From an uncultured Pseudomonadales bacterium (GTDB lineage Bacteria > Pseudomonadota > Gammaproteobacteria > Pseudomonadales > Porticoccaceae), in NCBI GenBank assembly GCA_905478975.1, contig CAJQKW010000017.1:1-46058 (forward strand): a DNA stretch of 46,058 nt, given 5' to 3'. The notes below the pieces were generated by a model. The model was not told the DNA's origin, made no database searches, and was given only the letters and a program-made list of their open reading frames with translations. Of this stretch, positions 4,419-25,021 are shown one piece after another; position 1 is the stretch's first letter; every line of letters starts with the position of its first letter. The position numbers and the translations under genes were made by a program.

Positions 4419-5138
4419 TTAAAGCTGCGGCACTAACTGCCTCAGTTTCGGCTCAAGGCGCCGACTGACAATTGGTTGAATAGTGATATCCCTTAGCTTG
4501 ACGGCAAGATGCCCCTCGGCGTAGGTGAGGCCTTCAATGGCATCCCGGGCTACCAATGCACTGCGGTGGACGCGAATAAACAGCTGCGAGAATTCTTCTT
4601 CAATATCTTTGAGGGTATCGGAGAGCACGGCTTCACCCTCAGCGGTGTAAGCGGTGACATATTTTTGATCGGCCTGGAGCAGTCTAATCTGCTCTACTGC
4701 AACTAATTCGAGGCCATTGTGGGTTCTGCTACAGAGGTGACGTCTATTGCTGCGAGCTGCACCGTTAAGTTGCGCCCGAGTATTGGTTCCTGCTCGCTGC
4801 AGCGCCGCATCCAGCTCAGCGGCTTTGATCGGCTTAAGTAAGTAGGCAAAGACTTTGGCATCAAAGGCCTGTAGTGCGAAGTCTTCAAATGCCGTGCAAA
4901 AAATAACCGCCGGCGGCGGGCTCATTTTTGCGATCTGCCGAGCCGCTTCGAGGCCATCCATCTCTGGCATGCGCACATCCATCAACAGTATATCGGGCAA
5001 ATATTGCTGTGCCATCTGCACCGCTTCGATACCATTTTTTGCTTCGCCGACAACCTCTACATCCAAATTTTTTTCAAGCAGACGCTGCATGCGGATCCGT
5101 GCCAGTGATTCATCATCTACGATCAATACCTTGATCAT
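4419..5138 (-). CDS. algR: AlgR-like LytTR response regulator
   Basis: This 239-residue protein has a receiver domain (residues 1-120, acidic pair at Asp8/Asp9, phosphoacceptor Asp54, Lys102 in the LKP motif) and a C-terminal LytTR DNA-binding domain (about 135-239, with IRVHRSALV). The length, the Asp54 position and the neighbours (hemC below, sensor gene and argH above) match AlgR, which controls exopolysaccharide and type IV pilus genes in Pseudomonas. A GGAGGG ribosome-binding site sits just before the ATG, inside the two-base gap to algZ. A role in controlling the exopolysaccharide locus 16 kb away is possible but not shown. Confidence 0.9.
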   Translation of the reverse strand: MIKVLIVDDESLARIRMQRLLEKNLDVEVVGEAKNGIEAVQMAQQYLPDILLMDVRMPEMDGLEAARQIAKMSPPPAVIFCTAFEDFALQAFDAKVFAYLLKPIKAAELDAALQRAGTNTRAQLNGAARSNRRHLCSRTHNGLELVAVEQIRLLQADQKYVTAYTAEGEAVLSDTLKDIEEEFSQLFIRVHRSALVARDAIEGLTYAEGHLAVKLRDITIQPIVSRRLEPKLRQLVPQL

Positions 5139-5140
5139 CT

Positions 5141-6205
5141 TTAACCCTCCAATGGTTTAAATAGAATCCTCGTATGGTAGTGATTTTTGAATACAGTTTC
5201 CTGTAACTCCGCATTGCCATTAAAGTAGGTCTCAAGCCGACTGCGCAAATTATCCAGCGCCAGCTGGTGGCCTGAGGTGTTCGTAGCAACAACACTCCCA
5301 TCATCAGTACTATTCGGGAGACTGTTGATCAGGTCTATAACCAGCCATTCTGATTGACGATAAATAACAATATAAAGAGCGCCCCCATCACGCGCCGGTT
5401 GCACCCCGTGGAATACCGCATTTTCAATTAATGGCTGCAAAATCAACGCCGGAACAAGAATATTGTTGAGCTCAACTTTAATATCCCAGCTGTATTCAAG
5501 GCGCTCATCGAGGCGCAATTTTTCGATTTCCAAATAGCGTTTGCAGGCCTCCACTTCCTCTTGCAATGTCACTGAGCTGGTGTTTTTTAGGGCATAGCGA
5601 AAAAGATCACAGAGGTTCTCGACTGTTTTCTCCGCCTTATCGGGGTCGATTCGAATCAGGGTCGCGAGGCTGTTCATGCTGTTAAATAAAAAGTGTGGTC
5701 GGATAGTTGCCTGCAAGGCCTGTAGTCTTGCCTCTAGACTGGCGCTCTGCTGTTGGTACAAACGCTGTTGTAGATAATAAAGCCTTAGAATCACGCCAGC
5801 GGGAATGGCGGCAATCAAAACGGTATTCAGTATTGAAACCGGGTCGGCTCGCCAGATCCTGCTGAGAGAATAGTTATTCCAGTATTCTGCGGCGACGGCA
5901 CAGAGAGCTGCGGCCAACAAAACCAAGAGATAATTAATCAGTGCCACACGAGGCAGTGTCAGGTGCAATAAGTAAGGTCGCGCACGACATAAAAACAGGG
6001 CGCTGATTAAAGCAATCCAACAGATTAACAGCGCAATTTTGCCCAGCCAGAGAAAATCGAAGTCGCCAATACCACTGTGAAGCAGCCCCATTAACACCGC
6101 CGATAAGGCCGCAATAACAAATATTCCCAACAATCCCTGTCCGCGACAGAGGTCAGGAATAAAATAATCGTCTATTTGAGTCTGATTTTCCCCTGAATCA
6201 CGCAT
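5141..6205 (-). CDS. algZ: AlgZ/FimS-like LytS-family sensor histidine kinase
   Basis: The 354-residue protein has four hydrophobic segments (about residues 24-43, 52-73, 87-106 and 125-141), a short coiled region, and then the His_kinase motif RPHFLFNSMNSL with His171. The ATP-binding part has LQPLIENAVFHG and a C-terminal DNLRSRL motif. This is the AlgZ/FimS type, which lacks a canonical HisKA domain and pairs with a LytTR regulator. It lies two bases upstream of algR and is divergent from argH across 70 bp, the arrangement known from Pseudomonas. Confidence 0.9.
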   Translation of the reverse strand: MRDSGENQTQIDDYFIPDLCRGQGLLGIFVIAALSAVLMGLLHSGIGDFDFLWLGKIALLICWIALISALFLCRARPYLLHLTLPRVALINYLLVLLAAALCAVAAEYWNNYSLSRIWRADPVSILNTVLIAAIPAGVILRLYYLQQRLYQQQSASLEARLQALQATIRPHFLFNSMNSLATLIRIDPDKAEKTVENLCDLFRYALKNTSSVTLQEEVEACKRYLEIEKLRLDERLEYSWDIKVELNNILVPALILQPLIENAVFHGVQPARDGGALYIVIYRQSEWLVIDLINSLPNSTDDGSVVATNTSGHQLALDNLRSRLETYFNGNAELQETVFKNHYHTRILFKPLEG

Positions 6206-11287: not shown

Positions 11288-11323
11288 GCCTAAATGCTAA
11301 GGAACTAGCTTTTAGGCGTTTTC
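11288..11323 (+). terminator. Intrinsic terminator of lptM-lysA-dapF-DUF484
   Basis: GCCTAAA (11288-11294) pairs with TTTAGGC (11311-11317), and inside it GCTA pairs with TAGC. On the plus strand the stem is followed by GTTTTC. It covers the stop codon of the convergent rnr gene (11305-11307), so the two transcription units share this DNA. Confidence 0.75.
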
Positions 11324-13794
11324 TTGCGCGCAGCTCCAGCGCCTTTATTACCCTGTCCAGCGGCCTTTGGCGCATTGCGACGACGCTTCGAACCAGGCGC
11401 TGAATCCCTGCCGCCAGCTCCAGACCGAGCACCAGCACCGCGTTTCTTTTTACTTTTGGGGCCCTGCTTAGAGTCTTGCTCACGTGGCTTTCTTGGAGAT
11501 TTTCCCGCAGGCCTTTTAGCGCCTGAATGGTTACTAGAATTTTCCTGCCCTGCTAATTCAAAATCAATTTTGCGCTCGTCGAGATTGACCCGAACCACCT
11601 TCACTGTCAGCTTGTCTCCCAAGCGGAATATACGGCCGGTGCGCTCGCCAACCATGCGGTGTTGCGAGGGCTCGTGAGTATAATAATCTTTCGGCAGACC
11701 GGTGACGTGAACCAGCCCTTCTACATAGAGTTCGTCGAGCATAACAAACAGGCCAAAACCGGTCACGGCGGTTACTACGCCGGGAAACTCTTGGCCTACT
11801 CGATCCACCAAATATTCACATTTAAGCCAATTGACCACATCCCGGGTCGCCTCATCGGCGCGGCGCTCGGTGACCGAGAGATGTGCTCCGGTCTCATCGA
11901 GACGCGGCAGTTCATAGGGATAGATATCCGCTTTGGCGATTTCTTTGGCGCCTTCAACCCGCACCACACCGGAAACTTTCTTGGTGCTGCGAATCAGGCT
12001 GCGAATGGCGCGATGCACCAAGAGATCGGCATAGCGACGAATCGGTGAGGTGAAGTGGGTGTAGCCGTCAAAGGCGAGTCCAAAGTGGCCAAGATTCTCA
12101 GCCTGATAAACCGCTTGGCTCATGGAGCGCAGCAGCACCGATTGAATCACCGAGGCGTCATCACGATTCTTTGCGGCCCTCAAAACCCGCTGGTAGTCCT
12201 CTGGCTGGGGATCATCTCCCCCACCCAAGCCCATTCCCAGTTCCCCAAGAAAGTCCCGCACCGAGGACAGGCGGTCTTCGCTGGGGCCTTCGTGGACTCG
12301 ATAGAGTGCTGGTAGCTTGGATTTCTCGAGAAACTGTGCGGTGCAGACATTGGCTGCGAGCATGCACTCTTCAATAAGACGGTGAGCTTCGGTGCGTTTC
12401 ACCGGAATAATCTGACTTATTTTGCGCTGGCTATCAAACAGGATACGGGTTTCCTGTGTATCGAAGTCGATGGCGCCGCGCTCACTGCGACGCTTGTGAA
12501 GCACGCTATAGAGATCATGCAGCGAATCGATCTGCGGCAGGATGGCGGCAAACTGGTCGCGAATATTGGCGTCGTCCGCCGATCCCCGCTCTTCAATAAT
12601 TTGCGCCACCTGGGTGTAGGTCATACGCGCATGAGAATACATGACGGCTTCGTAAAACTGGTATTTGGTCACGTCGCCCTCGCGACTGATCTGCATTTCG
12701 CAGACCATACAGAGACGATCTTCCCGAGGATTCAACGAACAGAGGCCGTTAGACAGCTTCTCTGGCAACATCGGCACCACATGGTTGGGGAAATACACCG
12801 AATTGCCGCGCTCAAAGGCTTGAATATCAAGGGCGCTGCCAGCTTTTACATAATGTGACACATCGGCGATGGCGACAATTAACTGCCAGCCACCGCGGGG
12901 CTTGGGCTGACAGTAGACCGCGTCATCAAAGTCACGGGCATCTTCACCGTCGATCGTGACCAGCGGCAGAGAGCGCAGGTCAACGCGGAATTCTTTGTCA
13001 GTAACATGATCCGGTATGGCATCGGTTTCCTCTTGAACTGCATTGTTCCACTGGTGGGGAATGCCGTAGTTGCGAATCGAGACCTCAATCTCTAAGCCGG
13101 GATCCAAATGGTCGCCCAAGACTTCAGCAATGTGGCCACTGGGCGGACTATTGCGCGACGGTGCGTCGGTGATGCCAACCAAGACAATCTGGCCCGCCGC
13201 AGCGCCATTCAGCTGATCAACAGCAATCAGGATGTCCTGACTGATACGCGGATTGTCCGGGCGCACAAAATGTATGCCACTCTCGCAGAAGTAACGTCCC
13301 ACCAGCTCGGTAGTCTTGCGCTCGACAACATCGACTAATGTCCCTTCAGGGCGACCGCGGCGATCTCGACCGGCAATCCGCACCAGCACGATGTCGCCAT
13401 CAAAGACTCGGCGCATCTGACGACTGGAGAGATAGATATCCTGCTCACCCGCTTCCAGCGGCGAGACAAAGCCATAACCTTCCGGATGACCAATAACACG
13501 CCCTTTGACCAAATTTAACTTGTCCAAAGTGCCGTAGCCATCAGCTCGATTACGTGCAACCTGACCATCCCGCTCCATCGCTCGAAGGCGCCGACGCATG
13601 GCTTCGATCTGCTCATCGTCAACCAGCTGCAAACCCACACAAATTTCCTCGTGAGTCAGAGGCCCTACACTTTCACGCAGATACTCGAGAACAAACTCTC
13701 GACTCGGCACAGGCTTCTGGTACTTGGATGCTTCGCGGCTAGCATAGGGATCGGTCGGTTTTTCTTTTCGAGACATAAAGGTTTTGGTATCCAT
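11305..13794 (-). CDS. rnr: Ribonuclease R
   Basis: RNase R is a processive 3'-to-5' exoribonuclease that degrades structured RNA. The 829 residues have an N-terminal winged-helix region (about 28-90) and cold-shock OB domains (about 95-260). The RNB catalytic domain holds the metal-binding motif IDGEDARDFDD (Asp282, 288, 290, 291) and HFTSPIRRYADLLVHR. An S1 domain (about 650-735) and a long Lys/Arg/Gly-rich tail (about 740-829) follow. A second ATG seven codons in (13776) is an equally possible start. The gene reads toward DUF484 and lies just downstream of the minus-strand RNA array and its terminator. Confidence 0.96.
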   Translation of the reverse strand: MDTKTFMSRKEKPTDPYASREASKYQKPVPSREFVLEYLRESVGPLTHEEICVGLQLVDDEQIEAMRRRLRAMERDGQVARNRADGYGTLDKLNLVKGRVIGHPEGYGFVSPLEAGEQDIYLSSRQMRRVFDGDIVLVRIAGRDRRGRPEGTLVDVVERKTTELVGRYFCESGIHFVRPDNPRISQDILIAVDQLNGAAAGQIVLVGITDAPSRNSPPSGHIAEVLGDHLDPGLEIEVSIRNYGIPHQWNNAVQEETDAIPDHVTDKEFRVDLRSLPLVTIDGEDARDFDDAVYCQPKPRGGWQLIVAIADVSHYVKAGSALDIQAFERGNSVYFPNHVVPMLPEKLSNGLCSLNPREDRLCMVCEMQISREGDVTKYQFYEAVMYSHARMTYTQVAQIIEERGSADDANIRDQFAAILPQIDSLHDLYSVLHKRRSERGAIDFDTQETRILFDSQRKISQIIPVKRTEAHRLIEECMLAANVCTAQFLEKSKLPALYRVHEGPSEDRLSSVRDFLGELGMGLGGGDDPQPEDYQRVLRAAKNRDDASVIQSVLLRSMSQAVYQAENLGHFGLAFDGYTHFTSPIRRYADLLVHRAIRSLIRSTKKVSGVVRVEGAKEIAKADIYPYELPRLDETGAHLSVTERRADEATRDVVNWLKCEYLVDRVGQEFPGVVTAVTGFGLFVMLDELYVEGLVHVTGLPKDYYTHEPSQHRMVGERTGRIFRLGDKLTVKVVRVNLDERKIDFELAGQENSSNHSGAKRPAGKSPRKPREQDSKQGPKSKKKRGAGARSGAGGRDSAPGSKRRRNAPKAAGQGNKGAGAARKKTPKS

Positions 13795-13851
13795 TGAATA
13801 AGCAGGCAGTCTATGTCTTATAGGCTATGGAGTAAAAGAAATTCGGCAGCC

Positions 13852-13889
13852 AAAAAAAACCCAGACTGGCAAATGCCATATCTGGGTTT
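13852..13889 (-). terminator. Strong intrinsic terminator ending the RNA array
   Basis: On the minus strand a nine-pair stem (AAACCCAGA/TCTGGGTTT, 13857-13889), with a further TGGCA/TGCCA pairing inside the loop, runs straight into eight T residues (13852-13859). It is in front of rnr and no protein gene ends upstream of it nearer than the kinase stop at 14765. It therefore implies a non-coding transcript across 13.9-14.7 kb. Confidence 0.9.
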
Positions 13890-13916
13890 CAACGGGGTAC
13901 CAATGATCTAACTACA

Positions 13917-14589
13917 TTTTGACTCGCACCATCCCTGGTGGACAACTTCCTACTACCTATGCGCTCATTACCTATGTACTCACACAACATCGGTAGTATC
14001 AAAACGGCTGTACCAATCTAGGCGGTTTCCTTAACTAGCCAACTCCCTGTCAGCTATGCCTCAAGCATCCTGCTTATTAGCGCCGTCTGTACAACAAATA
14101 TCTTTCGCCATCCCTAGCGTCGATCTTCCTGTTCGCAATGCATTCACGCAACATCGCTAGTATCAAACGACTATGCTAATTTGGCCTGTTTCCTTAACCA
14201 GCCAACTCCCTGTCAGCTGTGCCTCAAGCGTCCTGCTTATTAGTGCCGTCTGTACAACAAATCGTTACTTGCGCCTTCCATGGTGCCGATCTTCCTATTT
14301 GCGATGCATTCACACAGCATCGGTAGTATCAAAACGGCTAATGCTAATTTGGGCGGTTTCCTTAACTAGCCAACTCCCTGTCAGCTATGCCCCAAGCGTC
14401 CTGCTTACTAGCGCCGTCTGTAAAATAAATATTGACTCGCACCATCCTTGGTGCACGACTTCCTAGTCGCCATCTGTTCACACAAAATCGGTAGTGACAA
14501 AACGGTTAATGCTAATTTGGCTTGTTTCCTTACTAGCCAACTCCCTGTCAGCTATGCCTCAAGCGTCCTGCTTATTAGCGCCGTCTGTA
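13917..14589 (-). repeat. Four tandem units of 163-175 bp
   Basis: Units begin (minus-strand sense, at TACAGACGG) at 14589, 14422, 14254 and 14091, giving lengths of 167, 168, 163 and about 175 bp. The first half of each unit (about 75 bp, containing three GGA hairpins) is nearly identical. The second half diverges in sequence but keeps two GGA loops exactly 16 bases apart in every unit. A partial fifth tail (an AGGGATGG segment at 14628-14635) precedes unit 1. Unit lengths are not all multiples of three, and no spacers or direct-repeat periodicity of the CRISPR kind are present. Confidence 0.9.
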
Positions 14590-14669
14590 TAAAAAAGCAG
14601 TGTAGGACTGTTATCTATTCACCACTACCATCCCTTTGTACGCATCATGCTAGGGAGCCAATACAGGGT

Positions 14670-14694
14670 TCTATAATAGGCCTGTGATTGACAA
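14670..14694 (-). promoter_or_regulatory. Candidate promoter of the RNA array
   Basis: On the minus strand TTGTCA (14694-14689) is followed by TATTATAGA (14678-14670). The -10 choices TATTAT or TATAGA are good, but the distance to TTGTCA (10-13 bases) is too short for a standard -35, so activation is likely. A clear GacA site (TGTAAG, six bases, CTTACA) is not visible; only a degenerate TGTAAT half-site occurs at 14701-14706. Confidence 0.4.
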
Positions 14695-14764
14695 AAGAAA
14701 ATTACACTGACGAACTAGTACGAAAGGATTAGTTTTTGATTTGAGCAACGGTAGATTTTTTATT

Positions 14765-17008
14765 CTAGGAGGCGAGGAAGTCGTCAATATGCTGGCGAAT
14801 CTGCTCCACCCGCATAAGGTTTTTATCGGCATTCAAAGAACCGTAGTCTGCCCTAAAGGCCAGCACCATCTCCCGCAGTTCTGTCATGCCGTAGAGACCT
14901 GATAAACCCATTAAGTCGTGAACGATTTCACGCAGGCTACCGTTTTCATTATTTTTCAATTGCTCTTCGAGCTTATCGAGGCTTTGAGAGAGCGCTTTTT
15001 TTAGCTCTTCTACCGGGACTACTGTTGAAAGTAACCCGGCCCCTCTAGGGATCGGGGTATCGGTCACTCTGGCGACGACCTGAGTGAGGCTCTCGATCAG
15101 TTCGTTCTCATTAACCGGCTTGAGCAACAGCATCGCCGCGCCAGCCTCGGTAATTCGCTCTTGCTCAACCATGGTCACATCGGCAGTCAATGCAATGATC
15201 GGCGGGCTTTCGCCAGACTGCTGAATAATTGTTTCGCAGGCGGTAACGCCATCAACAAGCGGCATATGGATATCCATAAGAATTGCGTCCACGTGCAGTT
15301 CACAGGCGATCTCAATCGCCTCTTGGCCATTGTTTGCTGTCAAGCAGCTCGCGCCATAGCCCTTCAGCAAGCGCACGATCAGCTGCTGATTAAAGCTATT
15401 GTCTTCGGCAACCAAAATCGTCATGCCAGCCAGCACTTCATCGTGAGATACATGGCGATTCGATGTACCCACTAAAGCCTCGGCATTGGGCCCATTACTG
15501 ACACCCAGCTGACAGGTAAAAGAAAACACTGACCCTTCGCCAACTCTACTGCGAACTTTTATCTGCCCGCCCATCACCTGAACCAAATTCTTACAGATCG
15601 ACAGGCCCAAGCCAGCACCGCCGAAGCGTCGGTTTATCGATGTATCCTCTTGGGAAAATGGGTCAAAAAGGGTTGGGATCTTATTCTCTTCAATGCCCTT
15701 GCCGGTATCGGTAACCGAACAGTCCAATATCACTTTGCCCTCAAGATTGCTGAGACAGCGGATATCAACGCTTATAGATCCGCTGTCAGTAAACTTGATG
15801 GCGTTGCTTATAAGGTTGCTGATCACCTGAGTAAACCTCACCGGATCACCTACCAGTCCATGAGGAATTGCCTCATCAATGGTGTAGCTTAAATCCAGCC
15901 CTTTCTCCCGTGCTCGCTGGCGCTGAATAGACATAAGGTCAGCAATCCAAGACTCGATATAAAAGGATACTTTCTCCAGAGTGAAACCACCCACTCGGGC
16001 TTTTGAAAATTCGAGAATATCGTCAATCATGGTCAACAGCATATTCGACGACATATTAATAATACGCAGATGCTCATCGCGCTTTCCCGCATCGGTCTCA
16101 ATCGAAAGCAATTTTAAGAAACCAATAACCGCAGTCAAAGGCGTGCGCAGCTCATGGCTCATTCTGGCGAGAAACTGATCCTGAGCTTCCATAGCCTCTT
16201 CAAGCTCAATCAAGGTTATCTGGAGCTGCGCGGTTGCACGAGCGACTTCGCTTTGCATGCGCACACTGGACTGACGCACACTGGTCGCCAACTGATTGAT
16301 ACCCGACGCTAGCTTGCGTACTTCGACGGGCCCGGCCTCCACGGCCAAATTGTTGAGACTCCCGGCCTCCATGGACTCAACGACGCCGGTGAGCAACTCA
16401 ACCGGTCGAGAAATACTTCGCCCAATCCTCATGGATAGCCACGCGGCCACAAGCAACCCAAGAGTGGAGACCAGCACAATGGCAAAAATGCCCTCACGGT
16501 ACTGCTCTTCGAGTATTTTATCGGTCAGTGAAACAACCACCCAGCCCAGGGCATCGGCGCTGGGCTCCTGGCCCTCGTCATAGTCTTCGAGTGCCGGTGA
16601 CGTTAATGTCACCCGCGAATAAAAGTACCAGTTGTGGTCTATATAAACGGGCTTACCAAACTCGTAGGGACGGGGATTGCCGACAACACGGAGGTCAACT
16701 TCGCCTATAGCGACACTGGTATCTTGACTGGCATTGTAAAAAAGCAAGCCATTGACCGCCGGAATATCGAGCACCGACTCGCCGAGATCCATCAGCATTT
16801 TCTGGTTGTTGGAATACACCGCGAATTCAGCATTGGCAGAAATCTGCTGCGCTGCGACGGAACCGGTATTGTGCAGGTTAGCCAGCAGTACATTGCGCTG
16901 ACTGGATATCATATAGCTGGCTAGTACCATACAGAGCAATGTCAGCGGCAAAAGCGATGTGATTAGCAGCCGCGAGTGGATACTTAAAAATTGCCGTTTT
17001 ACTGCCAT
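14765..17008 (-). CDS. BarA/GacS-like tripartite hybrid histidine kinase
   Basis: The 747-residue inner-membrane kinase has a TM helix (about 13-33), a periplasmic domain (34-172) and a second TM helix (174-192). HAMP (about 193-250) and a coiled coil follow, then HisKA with His285 in MSHELRTP. The ATPase carries N402, the DTGKGIE and GGAGLGLS boxes; the receiver has Asp579 in LMDIHMP, and a C-terminal Hpt has His697 in VHDLMGLSG. This domain order, including the single periplasmic loop, is that of BarA/GacS, which drives transcription of Csr/Rsm RNAs through UvrY/GacA. The binding-protein gene ends one base upstream, which suggests ligand input through that partner. The Csr-like array starts about 100 bases downstream. 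Orthology to GacS is not proven. Confidence 0.85.
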   Translation of the reverse strand: MAVKRQFLSIHSRLLITSLLPLTLLCMVLASYMISSQRNVLLANLHNTGSVAAQQISANAEFAVYSNNQKMLMDLGESVLDIPAVNGLLFYNASQDTSVAIGEVDLRVVGNPRPYEFGKPVYIDHNWYFYSRVTLTSPALEDYDEGQEPSADALGWVVVSLTDKILEEQYREGIFAIVLVSTLGLLVAAWLSMRIGRSISRPVELLTGVVESMEAGSLNNLAVEAGPVEVRKLASGINQLATSVRQSSVRMQSEVARATAQLQITLIELEEAMEAQDQFLARMSHELRTPLTAVIGFLKLLSIETDAGKRDEHLRIINMSSNMLLTMIDDILEFSKARVGGFTLEKVSFYIESWIADLMSIQRQRAREKGLDLSYTIDEAIPHGLVGDPVRFTQVISNLISNAIKFTDSGSISVDIRCLSNLEGKVILDCSVTDTGKGIEENKIPTLFDPFSQEDTSINRRFGGAGLGLSICKNLVQVMGGQIKVRSRVGEGSVFSFTCQLGVSNGPNAEALVGTSNRHVSHDEVLAGMTILVAEDNSFNQQLIVRLLKGYGASCLTANNGQEAIEIACELHVDAILMDIHMPLVDGVTACETIIQQSGESPPIIALTADVTMVEQERITEAGAAMLLLKPVNENELIESLTQVVARVTDTPIPRGAGLLSTVVPVEELKKALSQSLDKLEEQLKNNENGSLREIVHDLMGLSGLYGMTELREMVLAFRADYGSLNADKNLMRVEQIRQHIDDFLAS

Positions 17009-20175: not shown

Positions 20176-20847
20176 TTAATTGCTTGCTTCGGCACTTTCA
20201 TCAAGACCCAGTTTCTGGCCCAGAATACCTGCCTGTGTTCGATTGGCTAGACCCAGCGCGCGCAGCATGGCGCTGACATGGACCTTTACCGTATTTTCCG
20301 AGAGGTCGAGATCTCGGGCGATCTGTTTATTGGACCGGCCCTGGGTGATATGGCGCAAGATGTCCATCTGCCGCTTGGTCATCAGCCCGGCGATAATATC
20401 CGCATCGGCACCGGAGTCCACTTCATCAATAACTTTGGCCACATCCGGCATAGCTTCGCGAAGGGAATCAGGCACGTATTTATCACCTTTTAAGGCGCGA
20501 GAAATCGCCTCAAATAGCGCGTCTTTAGGAGCCGATTTTGTAACAAACCCGATGGCGCCAAAATCTAAACATTTACGGATATGGGCGGGGTTTTCAGAAG
20601 CAGAGAGAACAATAACCGGAAGATTGGGATAACTTTCACAGAGCATCGCGATAAAGTTAAAACCACCCCCAGCCCCGGGCATAAATAAATCGACAATAAC
20701 CAAGTCGATAGTGTCCCGAGCGAGGATTGTTAACGCAGTATCCCCATGATCTGTGGTGGTGACGTCAATACCCTTATACTCATCGAGCAATGTCGCCTTT
20801 AGTCCGACGCATACGAAAGCGTGGTCATCAACTATCAGAACGTGCAT
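20176..20847 (-). CDS. LuxR/NarL-type response regulator
   Basis: The 223 residues contain a receiver domain (IVDDHAF, phosphoacceptor Asp53 in IVDLFMPG, conserved Ser in VLSAS, Lys in TKSAP) and a LuxR-type helix-turn-helix (about 155-213, SNKQIARDLDLSENTVKVHVSAML). It is the first gene of the receptor-binding protein-kinase group and is the likely partner of the hybrid kinase. It belongs to the same broad family as GacA/UvrY but is not clearly GacA by sequence. Its leader has two AGGA motifs. Confidence 0.88.
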   Translation of the reverse strand: MHVLIVDDHAFVCVGLKATLLDEYKGIDVTTTDHGDTALTILARDTIDLVIVDLFMPGAGGGFNFIAMLCESYPNLPVIVLSASENPAHIRKCLDFGAIGFVTKSAPKDALFEAISRALKGDKYVPDSLREAMPDVAKVIDEVDSGADADIIAGLMTKRQMDILRHITQGRSNKQIARDLDLSENTVKVHVSAMLRALGLANRTQAGILGQKLGLDESAEASN

Positions 20848-21011: not shown

Positions 21012-23408
21012 CTACAAATCACTCAAGGCCAGGGATATTTGTGCCTGTAGTGACGCATCCGATGAGGCTAGATCTCTAGCCCGTTGCAACGACGCCTTCG
21101 CCTCATCCTCACGGCCCAGTAGACTTAAGCCGACACCACGGTGATAGTGAAACACCGCAACCGCCGGCGCCAATTCGATGACCTTTGCCAATAGCGGCTC
21201 AGCCACCTCAGGCAAGTCGGCTTTAATCAGCGCCCAAGCATAGGTGTCAACGAAGTAAGGTTGCTCTGAATCGGCAAAGCGTTCTGTGAGCTTGACCGCA
21301 CGATTAATATTTTCTGCCGATGCGTATTCATCAGTTAGTAGGCTGGCAAGGTTGTTGATCACTGCCTGATGGTCAGGATTAGTCTTGAGAACGTCTTCGT
21401 ACAGCTCAACAGCCCTGTCCTTATTGTTGAGTTTCTCATGGGCTGATGCCAGCAGTATCTTGAGTAAGCTACTGTCGGGCAACGCTTTGAGACCGCGCTC
21501 AAGGCTGTCAACAGCCGCTTGGGGATCACCCGCCGCGCGCTGGTTAGATGCCAGTGCCGTGTAGCCATTGACCCAGTTCGCGTCCTGTTCCAGGCCCTGT
21601 TCCAACAGATCCTGAGCCGTGGTTCGATCACCGCGCTTGCTATACACAGACGCCATTATCGACAGAGCCATCATATTGCTTGGATTTTTAGATCTAAATT
21701 GTTTGAGGTATTCCAGCAGCTTAGCTTCCTGACTAAGACGAAGGTAAGAGGTGGTGAGCCCCTCTAGCGCGCGCCCCATATCCGGGTTGATGGCCAGTGC
21801 CTGCTGATATTCATTAAGGGCGGTTTTATAGTCGCCCTGAGCTTGCATAGAGCGCCCGGAAAGATAATGACTAAAGGCAGGGTTGCGACCTATTTTGTCA
21901 ATTCGCGAGACGATTTTTTGCGAGCCTGCAAAATCCTGTTTCGACAACTTAATTTGCGCCAATATCGACAGCAGAATATCGTTATCTGGAGAGCGCAACA
22001 GGGCATCTTCGATAAGCCGCTCAGAGCGATCCACATCCCTTTTTTCCAGAAGACTTTGAATAACCGGCACCGCCGCCTGTACATTGCCCGGATTAATATC
22101 CAGCACCTTGCGGAAGGTGTCATCGGCCAACTGGCCTGAGCCAGAGGATAAATAGGCATTCGCCAACATCACTAGAGCAGCTTCAGATTCAGGATTGTTG
22201 CGCAACACAGTGCGCAGATCGCTGACCACAGCATCGATATCCTCGGCCAGAAGGTGGTAGCGGGCGCGCACTAGCAGAGCCTGCTCAAAGTGCCGATCGA
22301 CACTGAGTATTTCATTGGCCAGTTGCAGTGCCTTCTCATGCTCTCCGGCACTGAGTTGCATATCCGCTTTAAAGGCTTTCGCGCGAAACAGATGCTGGTC
22401 TTCGAAGTCACTGGAAATAATATTTTCCAACTCGGCCAGCACTCCGGCATTACTGCCCTTAGCCATCAATCGATCAATTCGGAAAAAGCGCAATTCAGCA
22501 TTTTGCGGATCTCTGGCGATATAGTGATCGAGCAATTCGTCCCCGGCCATTAAATCTTTCCCCGAGAGCAAGTCAACAATCACCATACGTACTTGGGTGT
22601 CACTGCTGTTGCGCCGCAAATAGTCTTCCAACACCTTGGCCGCGGCCTCAATGCGCTCACTGTCATTGAGCAGTTTTGCCAGCTTCAGGTAAAAGGCCTT
22701 CTCATCACGATTAGTCTTAATCAGCGTCCGATAATCTGCCTCCATGGCGACAACATCATTAATTTCCTGATTGATCTCCGTGCGTAACAGCAGCAGATGT
22801 AGATCGTCGTCTTCACGCTCAATCCAATCTGAGAGCATTGCCAAAGCCCCCTCTGTATCACCCTGCTTGTGCAGAATAGAGACTTTAATTGAGGCAATTT
22901 CAGCGGACTGGCTGTTCTGCGCCATGGCTTTATCAATGTACTCCATGGCCACGTCATAGAGATCTTTTTGCAGATAAGCCGACGCTTTAATGGCGTAGGC
23001 CTCAGCATTATTTGGGTCTAGTGCGAGAATAAAATCAGCCTTTTCTAAGGCACCGTCTGCCTGCTTAGCCAGCAGCAGCAGATAGGCGATTTTTATCTTC
23101 GCTTGCACATGATTGGGATCCAACTGCTCAACCTTAGACAGATTCTTATACAGCGCCTTCCAGTTTTGCTGTGTTTCAGCAATCAGGCCGAGATAATAAT
23201 AGGCACTGGCAAGCTTCGGGTCGATTTGCAGGGCATTGCGCAATTCAACATTGGCCTTCGACAGCTCACCCTCGGAGTAAAGCTCTATACCACTATTTAA
23301 ATAGCGATTGGCGGCCTCTTCTTTCGAGCCGCTGCATGCTGATATCGACAGCAGAAAAACACTGACCATAAAAAATCGACTAAGCGTCCTTATTACTTGT
23401 GCGCTCAT
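21012..23408 (-). CDS. prsT: XrtA-system TPR lipoprotein (PrsT-like)
   Basis: The 798 residues open with a lipoprotein signal and lipobox SISAC (Cys25), then consist almost wholly of TPR repeats (for example SAYYYLGLIAETQQNWKAL and FSHYLSGRSMQAQGDYKTAL). Size, lipobox and position match the PEP-CTERM/exosortase-associated TPR lipoprotein PrsT, thought to act in polysaccharide assembly or protein sorting at the envelope. The start overlaps the end of the exosortase gene by four bases, and a GGAGGG ribosome-binding site precedes it. It is the last gene of the cluster. Confidence 0.85.
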   Translation of the reverse strand: MSAQVIRTLSRFFMVSVFLLSISACSGSKEEAANRYLNSGIELYSEGELSKANVELRNALQIDPKLASAYYYLGLIAETQQNWKALYKNLSKVEQLDPNHVQAKIKIAYLLLLAKQADGALEKADFILALDPNNAEAYAIKASAYLQKDLYDVAMEYIDKAMAQNSQSAEIASIKVSILHKQGDTEGALAMLSDWIEREDDDLHLLLLRTEINQEINDVVAMEADYRTLIKTNRDEKAFYLKLAKLLNDSERIEAAAKVLEDYLRRNSSDTQVRMVIVDLLSGKDLMAGDELLDHYIARDPQNAELRFFRIDRLMAKGSNAGVLAELENIISSDFEDQHLFRAKAFKADMQLSAGEHEKALQLANEILSVDRHFEQALLVRARYHLLAEDIDAVVSDLRTVLRNNPESEAALVMLANAYLSSGSGQLADDTFRKVLDINPGNVQAAVPVIQSLLEKRDVDRSERLIEDALLRSPDNDILLSILAQIKLSKQDFAGSQKIVSRIDKIGRNPAFSHYLSGRSMQAQGDYKTALNEYQQALAINPDMGRALEGLTTSYLRLSQEAKLLEYLKQFRSKNPSNMMALSIMASVYSKRGDRTTAQDLLEQGLEQDANWVNGYTALASNQRAAGDPQAAVDSLERGLKALPDSSLLKILLASAHEKLNNKDRAVELYEDVLKTNPDHQAVINNLASLLTDEYASAENINRAVKLTERFADSEQPYFVDTYAWALIKADLPEVAEPLLAKVIELAPAVAVFHYHRGVGLSLLGREDEAKASLQRARDLASSDASLQAQISLALSDL

Positions 23409-25021
23409 TGGGTTCCCTCCAGGCTTTTAGCCGGCAAAAGTTGTAACAATTGATTTCGACTCGAGCGAATAAACGCCTGCGCGCGACGATCTGCATCTTC
23501 GATGCTCTCATCACCCAGCACCGGAGTCGTGACTCTAATCAGTGAGCCATCGGTACGGTTCAAGAACAGTGCATCCTTAAATAACATCCACTTTTTAATA
23601 TATTCATTGGCAACCGGAACACCGCGCTCCTCAAACCAATAATAGACAATCTGATCTTGCACGCCCTTGCGAATTACGACCCGATTGACTGGCATCTGAT
23701 CCACTGTGGTACGAGAAAAATTAGCAATCTCCCAGCCACCCCCGGGAATACAGACCTTAGGCGAATGCGGCGACACGCCTTTGCGCTGAGAGGCATAGTA
23801 AGCGACATAAAAATTGACTGGTCGCTGCTCAGAGTTGTGGTAATTGATCATCACATATTCGGTAAAACCAAGCTTATTGGCCACCTCTGTGTCGATGCTG
23901 TCATCCTGCCCCGTCCACTCATCAAGCTGTAGCGGGAACGTTGCCAGATTGGTCTTTTTCAATGTCGTAATCTCTTCACGAGACTCAATCGACATCAAAC
24001 TCACCAGTGCTGCAAGCAGCAAGGGAATCGCCGCGACAACCGGCAGCGGCCATTTCAAACCAGTCATACTGCCCGCAGCGTACTGATCGGCACTGACAGA
24101 AACCGGTACCGCAAAGGCCTCACGGATACTCTGACGGCTGGTCAGCAGTTCCATCAACAGCACCAAAAACAGCATCAAGCCACCGCAGGCCATAAAGATC
24201 AGCCAGCCTTCAAAATCATGTAAAAAGCCCTCTGCCATCTCGGTGCCCCAGTTATCCACCAGAAGACCGGTTATGGCGATACGCAGGCTATTCATGAAAA
24301 TAGTAATAGGCACCGTCGATAAAAACAGTAGCGCTTTTTTCCACAGCGACGCCTGATACAGATAGGCACCGATAAAACCCAGGCTCATCAACGGAAACAG
24401 GTAACGCAATCCACTACAGGCCTCGACTACCTGCAACTGGTAGTTACCCAAATCAATAATATTGCCACTCAGAAATACCGGGATGCGGCACAGACGAATT
24501 ATTTCAACACCCAGCTGAGACGAGAGTAGCTGTAGTTTTGAAGTCAGTATTACCTCAATAAAATAAGGTAGCGGCACAGCAAAACCGAGCAGCGCAATGG
24601 GCACCCAGGTATGGCGTGTCGCCGAACCCAAAAAGGCAATCGACAGGCCCAATAACAATAAAATAAACGAATAGTGAATCAGCATATACAGCGCACTGAT
24701 TTCGCCCACTAGAAGAACCGCCAGCGCTAAGGCAATAATCGGCAGACCCCACCAAGAAAAGTTCTGGTAACTGGCGGCGATTTGAAAGCGCCGCTCCCAG
24801 AGTATATATAGCGACACTAGCGGGATAATATAGCCGTGGCTGTACTCTTCCTGGAGCTGCCAGCGCAACACCGCTTCCGCGAGCCCGTCCCAATAGAGCC
24901 AAAAGCTTAGGCTCAAGGCCAACAGAAACAGAGCGATGCTCTGTTTAGGAGACATATCTACCCGTTTGTTACCATTGGGCCCTGGCTGAGCTGCCGTAAT
25001 ATTTTCGTCCTTAGAAACCAT
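23405..25021 (-). CDS. xrtA: Exosortase A fused to EpsI domain
   Basis: This 538-residue inner-membrane protein has multiple TM helices up to about residue 310. The exosortase catalytic set is visible: Cys202 in VEACSGLRYL, Arg247 in MNSLRIAITG and His268 in FLHDFEGW. The C-terminal part (about 345-538) is an EpsI-type domain, with HSPKVCIPGGGWEI and a VYYWFEERG-like segment. Exosortases cleave PEP-CTERM sorting signals at the membrane and couple to exopolysaccharide loci; EpsI fusions are common in the XrtA type. No PEP-CTERM substrate is encoded in the window. Confidence 0.92.
   Translation of the reverse strand: MVSKDENITAAQPGPNGNKRVDMSPKQSIALFLLALSLSFWLYWDGLAEAVLRWQLQEEYSHGYIIPLVSLYILWERRFQIAASYQNFSWWGLPIIALALAVLLVGEISALYMLIHYSFILLLLGLSIAFLGSATRHTWVPIALLGFAVPLPYFIEVILTSKLQLLSSQLGVEIIRLCRIPVFLSGNIIDLGNYQLQVVEACSGLRYLFPLMSLGFIGAYLYQASLWKKALLFLSTVPITIFMNSLRIAITGLLVDNWGTEMAEGFLHDFEGWLIFMACGGLMLFLVLLMELLTSRQSIREAFAVPVSVSADQYAAGSMTGLKWPLPVVAAIPLLLAALVSLMSIESREEITTLKKTNLATFPLQLDEWTGQDDSIDTEVANKLGFTEYVMINYHNSEQRPVNFYVAYYASQRKGVSPHSPKVCIPGGGWEIANFSRTTVDQMPVNRVVIRKGVQDQIVYYWFEERGVPVANEYIKKWMLFKDALFLNRTDGSLIRVTTPVLGDESIEDADRRAQAFIRSSRNQLLQLLPAKSLEGTQ

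Follow-up and report, generated by a model that had tools for sequence, protein, structure and literature searches.

The minus strand between a hybrid histidine kinase gene and rnr in this DNA appears to encode a single non-coding RNA of ~810 nt that acts as a CsrA sponge by means of GGA hairpins, with an ancestral single module duplicated in tandem (a reading to which we assign a probability of roughly 0.86). The structure of the RNA, the conservation of its sites, its synteny, the presence of csrA and the variation in unit number are directly supported by the data; CsrA sequestration, with unit number setting the binding capacity, would be its most likely function. The window, i.e., the whole stretch of 46,058 nt that was analyzed, lies on contig C17 of a 2.24-Mb, 142-contig bin (80% complete) of the SAR92 type (Porticoccaceae), in which one csrA was found. 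HTCC2207 is placed in the SAR92 clade of the Porticoccaceae in the NCBI taxonomy.

The gap between the kinase gene and rnr measures 970 bp (13795 to 14764) and is filled by the array, its leader and its terminator, the units spanning positions 13920 to 14585 of the minus strand. Along that strand come first a palindrome and the TCAGTGTAAT box, then TATTAT and a leader that has a single GGA, and finally the four units, each with five GGA, and the terminator. The sole open reading frame of at least 80 aa within the gap (97 aa, plus strand) matched no Pfam family at an E value of ≤0.001. The features of the locus are as follows.

11305 to 13794: rnr, with RNB, cold-shock, and S1 domains
13852 to 13889, minus strand: intrinsic terminator, a fold followed by eight T
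13920 to 14087, minus strand: unit 4, last-type, five GGA sites (unit model, 116.7 bits)
14099 to 14250, minus strand: unit 3, middle-type, five GGA sites (unit model, 122.4 bits)
14265 to 14418, minus strand: unit 2, middle-type, five GGA sites (unit model, 133.5 bits)
14433 to 14585, minus strand: unit 1, first-type, five GGA sites (unit model, 180.3 bits)
14597 to 14606, minus strand: leader hairpin with invariant CTACACT (columns invariant in 15/15 RNAs; hairpin in the consensus fold)
14631 to 14633, minus strand: leader GGA site (AAAGGGAU; AGGGA invariant in 15 aligned RNAs)
14655 to 14662, minus strand: 5′ strand of the putative closing stem (ATTGGCTC), by transfer from the fold of 15 single-copy RNAs; it would pair with the 3′ end of a unit (GAGTCAAT type)
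14673 to 14678, minus strand: candidate −10 box TATTAT, as read from the sequence
14701 to 14710, minus strand: upstream TCAGTGTAAT box, separated from the palindrome by 5 nt (conservation among relatives)
14716 to 14732, minus strand: palindrome TAATNC-N4-GTANTA (upstream conservation)
14765 to 17008, minus strand: hybrid histidine kinase, HAMP-HisKA-HATPase-REC with a weak Hpt (context; the RNA does not need the kinase)
20176 to 20847, minus strand: LuxR-type response regulator, candidate partner of the kinase (79 to 97% identical in 11/12 named loci)

Elsewhere in the window, a LytTR response regulator and a His_kinase-type sensor form a pair at 4419 to 6205, adjoining hemC/hemD, and an exosortase of the EpsH type and an adjacent TPR protein lie at 21012 to 25021 beside the operon of the LuxR-type regulator, the TPR protein resembling PrsT of XrtA/PEP-CTERM systems below the cut-off of that family.

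An earlier note on this DNA had described a 970-bp kinase-rnr stretch with four minus-strand units, 21 GGA triplets on that strand against 3 on the other, their display in loops, and a strong minus-strand terminator, all of which held on reanalysis. The unit model finds four units (14431 to 14589, 14265 to 14422, 14097 to 14254, and 13918 to 14091), and Tandem Repeats Finder reports 13980 to 14596 with a period of 168, 3.7 copies, and 84% matches; a repeat finder that agrees with it on the array places the repeat starts 163, 168, and 167 nt apart. The recount gave 21 GGA on the minus strand, five per unit plus one in the leader, while the plus strand has 3 within 13852 to 14665 and 5 in the whole gap. 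As a raw count this is only modestly high (shuffle mean, 15.8; 101 of 2000 dinucleotide shuffles reach 21) and by itself a weak argument, whereas the A-N-GGA count is a strong one: 13 observed versus 4.4 expected, a figure reached by 1 of 2000 dinucleotide shuffles. In minimum-energy folds of 30 units, 72 of 159 GGA sit in hairpin loops, compared to 344 of 3198 in shuffles, and the mean unpaired probability of GGA is 0.75 (0.53 in shuffles). The sense strand folds better than shuffles (z, −2.9; 0/20 shuffles as good), the antisense strand less so (z, −1.7; 1/20).

The convincing evidence for the RNA comes from relatives. A DNA search located it in 18 of 56 genomes, its own included, all of the same genus, and the unit model R1 matches 24 of 50 genomes of the genus (E ≤ 0.01, strict filters); these R1-positive genomes mostly carry one module of ~225 nt. 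The order kinase-RNA-rnr, with the kinase either whole or broken, is found in the loci that extend to both sides. In the single ~225-nt RNA the 5′ end (ATTGACTC) pairs with the 3′ end (GAGTCAAT), i.e., columns 1 to 8 with 237 to 244 in the fold of 15 aligned RNAs, and the equivalent closing stem of the array is predicted by transfer from this fold. In that alignment, which has two RNAs from G034 and one from a contig ending soon after, 49 pairs are predicted, and 17 show two-sided changes. No complete sense frame longer than 24 aa occurs in the 15 single-module RNAs, and a protein-coding reading of the region was rejected on this ground and for want of a Pfam family. The homologous loci are in keeping with the earlier proposal of a structured non-coding RNA: the RNA stays at the same place, its changes are compensatory, and sense frames do not exceed 24 aa.

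A six-helix structure on 30 units from both arrays and singles has 93.5% of its cells paired, with two-sided changes in 14 of 30 pairs and 88 such cells versus 32.7 in shuffles. None of 500 shuffles reaches its paired share, its two-sided pairs, or its two-sided cells; a fifth structure measure, further pair types, showed no excess (35 versus 34.5, with 230/500 shuffles reaching the value). Slid controls were 24 to 46% paired, a comparison that favors the six-helix structure because it was drawn from the same 30 sequences; likewise, related sequences can beat shuffles without any structure, and the two-sided changes are the stronger evidence. Alignment A3 was made without unit 1 of L004 and without L008, which are cut by contig ends. 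Hairpin 4 is poorly kept in the later units, its helix being 84.4% paired.

GGA is present at the five sites in 26, 30, 30, 29, and 30 of the 30 units (145 of 150 site cells), the third site being counted within a 13-column stretch, and the GGA columns of four hairpins have a mean identity of 0.98 versus 0.76 elsewhere, a difference reached by 3 of 10000 random draws. The last loop reads A (1.00), N (0.37), GGA (1.00), N (0.47) and is closed by a covarying stem. It matches the ANGGAN hexaloop described for RsmE, of the CsrA family, in the accessible part of PMC7652899.

Two upstream motifs accompany the RNA at fixed spacing, and both persist where the RNA itself has diverged. Of 30 distinct upstream regions, 27 have the palindrome with at most 2 mismatches, and a 28th (G004) does so once the stretch is extended; 29 have the TCAGTGTAAT box with at most 1 mismatch. 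From its conservation, the palindrome is likely the activator site of the RNA promoter. The 30 regions derive from 32 rows that held two doubles (L088 = L027 and L093 = L033, judged by coordinates and sequence), with L004 left out. The upstream box contains CAGTGTA, of which the leader-loop string TACACTG is the reverse complement. Transcription would be expected to start about 5 to 10 nt downstream of TATTAT. At the other end, the minus strand of 13845 to 13900 folds to −25.4 kcal/mol (z, −5.1), in agreement with the strong terminator noted before. A simple consensus scan of the region reported no promoter and no terminator, the latter, we think, because the stem has a bulge. Since the exact palindrome is found once in the window and once in the genome, the array comes with a single promoter motif and a single terminator, most simply as one transcript. 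A search for a palindrome regulon gave 9 sites at ≤2 mismatches versus 13 in a backward control, so that no regulon is visible.

The GacA box has the consensus TGTAAG-N6-CTTACA. In the 21 upstream regions scored (without L004 and L019, start motif unmatched, and with L033 scored from a wrong start), its best match has 2 to 7 mismatches, shuffles averaging 4.3 to 5.0; with 300 nt of the kinase gene added, the best match in 16 loci has 2 (L013), 3 (L016 and L018), or otherwise 4 to 5 mismatches, shuffles giving about 4. A GacA-box reading of the RNA promoter was rejected: no box recurs upstream, and a different palindrome is conserved.

These upstream data also bear on the neighboring kinase, with which the earlier note had paired the array as a BarA/GacS-like sensor. 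The best of 145 NCBIfam families for this protein is indeed BarA/GacS NF008318, at 405.7 bits against a cut-off of 890, and its sCache_4 and Hpt matches are below their cut-offs. Its nearest named relatives are from a Porticoccaceae MAG (87%) and MOLA455 (86%), records labeled HTCC2207 or SAR92 being 61% identical. The genome's best UvrY/GacA match is a regulator scoring 156.8 of 280 bits; its neighbors, by reading of the translations, are a TonB-type receptor and a sensor kinase, and a GacA orthologue is therefore not established in this bin, which is only 80% complete.

An unlikely alternative is that the RNA serves the adjacent kinase/LuxR-type regulator operon as a local partner, being transcribed under control of that two-component system alone and standing outside the global Csr circuit. 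The surroundings would suit it, since a TonB receptor and an ABC substrate-binding protein are found upstream of the kinase in 12/12 named loci and the LuxR-type regulator in 11/12 (the contig of the twelfth starts too late to show it), and the palindrome is exact only once in the genome. However, G004, G029, and G056 retain only the 3′ part of the kinase (query residues 382 to 745, 528 to 746, and 608 to 747, respectively) and lack the TonB receptor, the ABC substrate-binding protein, and the regulator within 8 to 9.5 kb upstream, yet keep the RNA and its promoter motifs. These remnants beside a retained RNA indicate that the RNA is independent of the kinase in cis. Conversely, the RNA is missing between kinase and rnr in seven genomes that keep both. 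A functional pairing with a BarA/GacS-like kinase is thus not supported, given the kinase score, the lack of a recurring GacA box, the three kinase-remnant relatives, and the seven RNA-less loci; what survived of the earlier Csr/Rsm-type array beside a Gac-like kinase is the structured non-coding RNA, its sites, its tandem units, and csrA. Three relatives (L177, L178, and L180) have lost the kinase operon except for the kinase 3′ part adjoining the RNA. The kinase of G017 is broken into three frames.

The seven loci emerged from 13 genomes with a kinase match and no R1 match, which were read at the syntenic place. In 7 of the 13 the kinase is closely followed by rnr with no RNA there, and 6 of these 7 have csrA, so csrA does not require the RNA here. 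Overall, csrA was found in 42 of the 50 genomes (23/24 with the RNA and 19/26 without). Five small genomes (1.4 to 1.7 Mb; L114, L117, L120, L121, and L122) have an RNA-like stretch between the upstream motif and a terminator, with 4 to 5 GGA versus 5 to 9 in 14 single-module relatives measured alike; they carry ACCATAGA in place of the GGA loop of hairpin 5 and have kept csrA. G060 has a less clear RNA-like stretch with 2 GGA. From their place and motifs, the stretches in these genomes are presumably diverged relatives of the RNA. R1 scores in them are no better than on the opposite strand or in neighboring sequence and were set aside. A change or decay of Csr control in the five streamlined genomes is possible.

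The genome does carry the protein that such an RNA would bind. One csrA copy was found, as the earlier note's reading called for, scoring 92.1 bits and exceeding two CsrA equivalog cut-offs; its product closely resembles CsrA/RsmE chains whose structures are known and retains the stretch VHREEIYQRI. According to the accessible part of PMC7652899, CsrA binds GGA hairpins as a dimer. Beyond the papers cited here, the open-licence literature yielded nothing on CsrA of SAR92. We propose a minus-strand transcript that would start near 14665 and end at the terminator (13852), giving an RNA of ~810 nt whose 21 GGA sites, many of them in hairpin loops, would bind CsrA dimers; the capture of CsrA would in turn free the mRNAs that it represses. 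It is distinctly improbable that the structured RNA instead binds a different protein or acts by base pairing (e.g., via the CTACACT loop), its GGA hairpins serving another RNA-binding protein. The CTACACT leader hairpin, invariant in 15/15 aligned RNAs, is left unexplained by CsrA binding, but the A-N-GGA-N pattern with its free N positions, together with five GGA sites kept in 145/150 cells, is as expected from CsrA recognition.

Unit-model matches outside the genus were considered as distant Csr RNAs and rejected; nearly all belong to a dispersed, often tRNA-linked repeat, and one (L105) looks like chance. Because these matches are mostly the repeat, the RNA is claimed for the SAR92 genus only. 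The repeat is ~85 to 95 nt long and has three hairpins; copies often stand in tandem and are frequently close to tRNA genes, and its loci (L100 to L104, L106 to L108, L111, and L154 to L173) are in other genomes. A copy lies ≤250 nt downstream of a same-strand tRNA in 9/20 regions, and in G017 and G023 the tRNA concerned is the tRNA-Ser behind csrA. It was matched in 15 of 17 genomes tested, some weakly or partly via the SAR92 RNA, with up to 27 matches per genome. Some copies share a terminal GCACCAAGGATGGTGCGAGTCAAT string with the SAR92 RNA, and there is weak Rfam similarity to AaHKsRNA22 (34.4 of 39.8 bits). No paper on the repeat was found in the open-licence literature; it may constitute a second class of GGA-bearing RNAs.

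That the tandem units are themselves such a mobile or dispersed repeat, related to the tRNA-linked ones and without regulatory role, is very improbable. Some repeat copies of the order do end in the same hairpin and GAGTCAAT string, and the repeat model re-finds the RNA. Against this, the RNA occupies one syntenic place with conserved promoter and terminator, single copies show compensatory changes, and two GGA loops are present in only 13 of 31 repeat copies examined. In the window's own genome, no repeat copy was found at E ≤ 0.001 besides the RNA itself.

Within the sponge reading, the number of modules varies over a short evolutionary distance. The window has four units, G023 three, G001 at least three (its first unit is cut by a contig end), G057 two, and G056 and G065 one each. 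These six genomes form one clade in an rnr tree of 20 genomes (support, 100/100), built without L018 (start motif unmatched) and without G002 and G032, whose loci have no rnr. G023 and G057 are sisters on short branches, yet one unit apart. An assembly artifact of the metagenome bin is very improbable: although the window comes from a 142-contig bin, all four of its unit sequences are distinct, three units also occur in G023, a single contig of 2.96 Mb, and two in MOLA455, which has no MAG label. The kinase coordinates of G057 are those of MOLA455, a multi-unit carrier deposited under a strain name.

In a tree of the units, several forks of which are weak, the first units lie close to the single-copy type, and the last units of three genomes (G023, G057, and G001) cluster. 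A third cluster, of middle units, also takes in the lone unit of G056, and the lone unit of G065 falls with unit 4 of the window. We read this as suggesting one early duplication followed by gains and losses. The ancestral SAR92 RNA would have been one module of ~225 nt carrying some five to seven GGA sites, and the 3′ part of this module would have been duplicated in tandem inside the transcript, adding sites without a second promoter. Outside the clade, G034 has two whole RNAs, leader included, with starts 236 nt apart; no second upstream palindrome was seen in the short spacer between them.

CsrA titration would accordingly range from about five to seven sites in one-module species to 21 in the array, unit number acting as the dose. 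Whether tandem module number indeed sets binding capacity, changing from 1 to 4 between sister species by inter-unit recombination and so serving as a dial on a global regulator, we regard as an even bet; if so, a CsrB-sized sponge would be seen growing out of an RsmY-sized one. Module numbers of 1, 2, 3, and 4 form a natural series on closely related backgrounds, which makes it testable how many sites a sponge needs and how a long CsrB-type RNA arises from a short RsmY-type one.

As to class, the RNA displays GGA in loops and single strands, has a conserved non-coding structure, and shares its genome with csrA, as Csr/Rsm sponges do. No Csr family was returned by Rfam for the window and 10 relatives' loci, either at gathering level or at permissive E values. 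The covariance models for CsrB/RsmB (RF00018) and RsmY (RF00195) gave 10 and 12.9 bits against gathering thresholds of 71 and 57, a check suggested in the earlier note that thus yielded no match, and the RsmY model exceeded its cut-off in 0 of the 50 genomes of the genus. An NsiR1 match (22.4 bits, below cut-off), lying over the terminator hairpin, was discarded. The RNA would work like a Csr/Rsm sponge but falls outside the CsrB and RsmY Rfam families, and the SAR92 marine clade would gain a Csr-type regulatory RNA that no Rfam model recognizes.

Like CsrB and CsrC of Escherichia coli and RsmB of Erwinia, the array would be a long non-coding RNA with about 20 GGA, an intrinsic terminator, and a csrA gene in the genome; the accessible part of PMC11882849 gives 22 GGA sites for E. 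coli CsrB and 14 for CsrC, next to the 21 of the array. Unlike them, it is built from four homologous modules and has no recurring GacA/UvrY-type box. The single SAR92 module is of similar order to RsmY, RsmZ, and RsmX of Pseudomonas, which are short with few GGA hairpins, but it is closed by a stem between its 5′ and 3′ ends; the RsmY model gives only 12.9 of 57 bits. The three Csr RNAs of Pseudoalteromonas fuliginea (Pf1 to Pf3, with 25, 21, and 9 GGA; PMC11882849) are likewise from a marine gammaproteobacterium; they are three separate RNAs, without module structure in the part of their description available, whereas the SAR92 array is modular. Neighboring duplicated Rsm/Csr RNAs are known as well. 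The tandem rsmX-1 and rsmX-2 of Pseudomonas brassicacearum are separate genes, rsmX-2 with its own upstream activating site (accessible part of PMC7911923), and csrB2 and csrB3 of Aliivibrio salmonicida are neighboring genes (accessible part of PMC6262261, where the genus is once printed as Aeromonas). The earlier claim that a tandem arrangement was undescribed must be narrowed to this extent, although no account of a module array within one sponge transcript was found in the open-licence literature. Tandem whole Rsm/Csr genes are already published; what seems new is the module array inside one predicted transcript, in which, in contrast to rsmX-1/rsmX-2 and csrB2/csrB3, all SAR92 modules have a single promoter motif and a single terminator in common, their number varying between 1 and 4 in close relatives.
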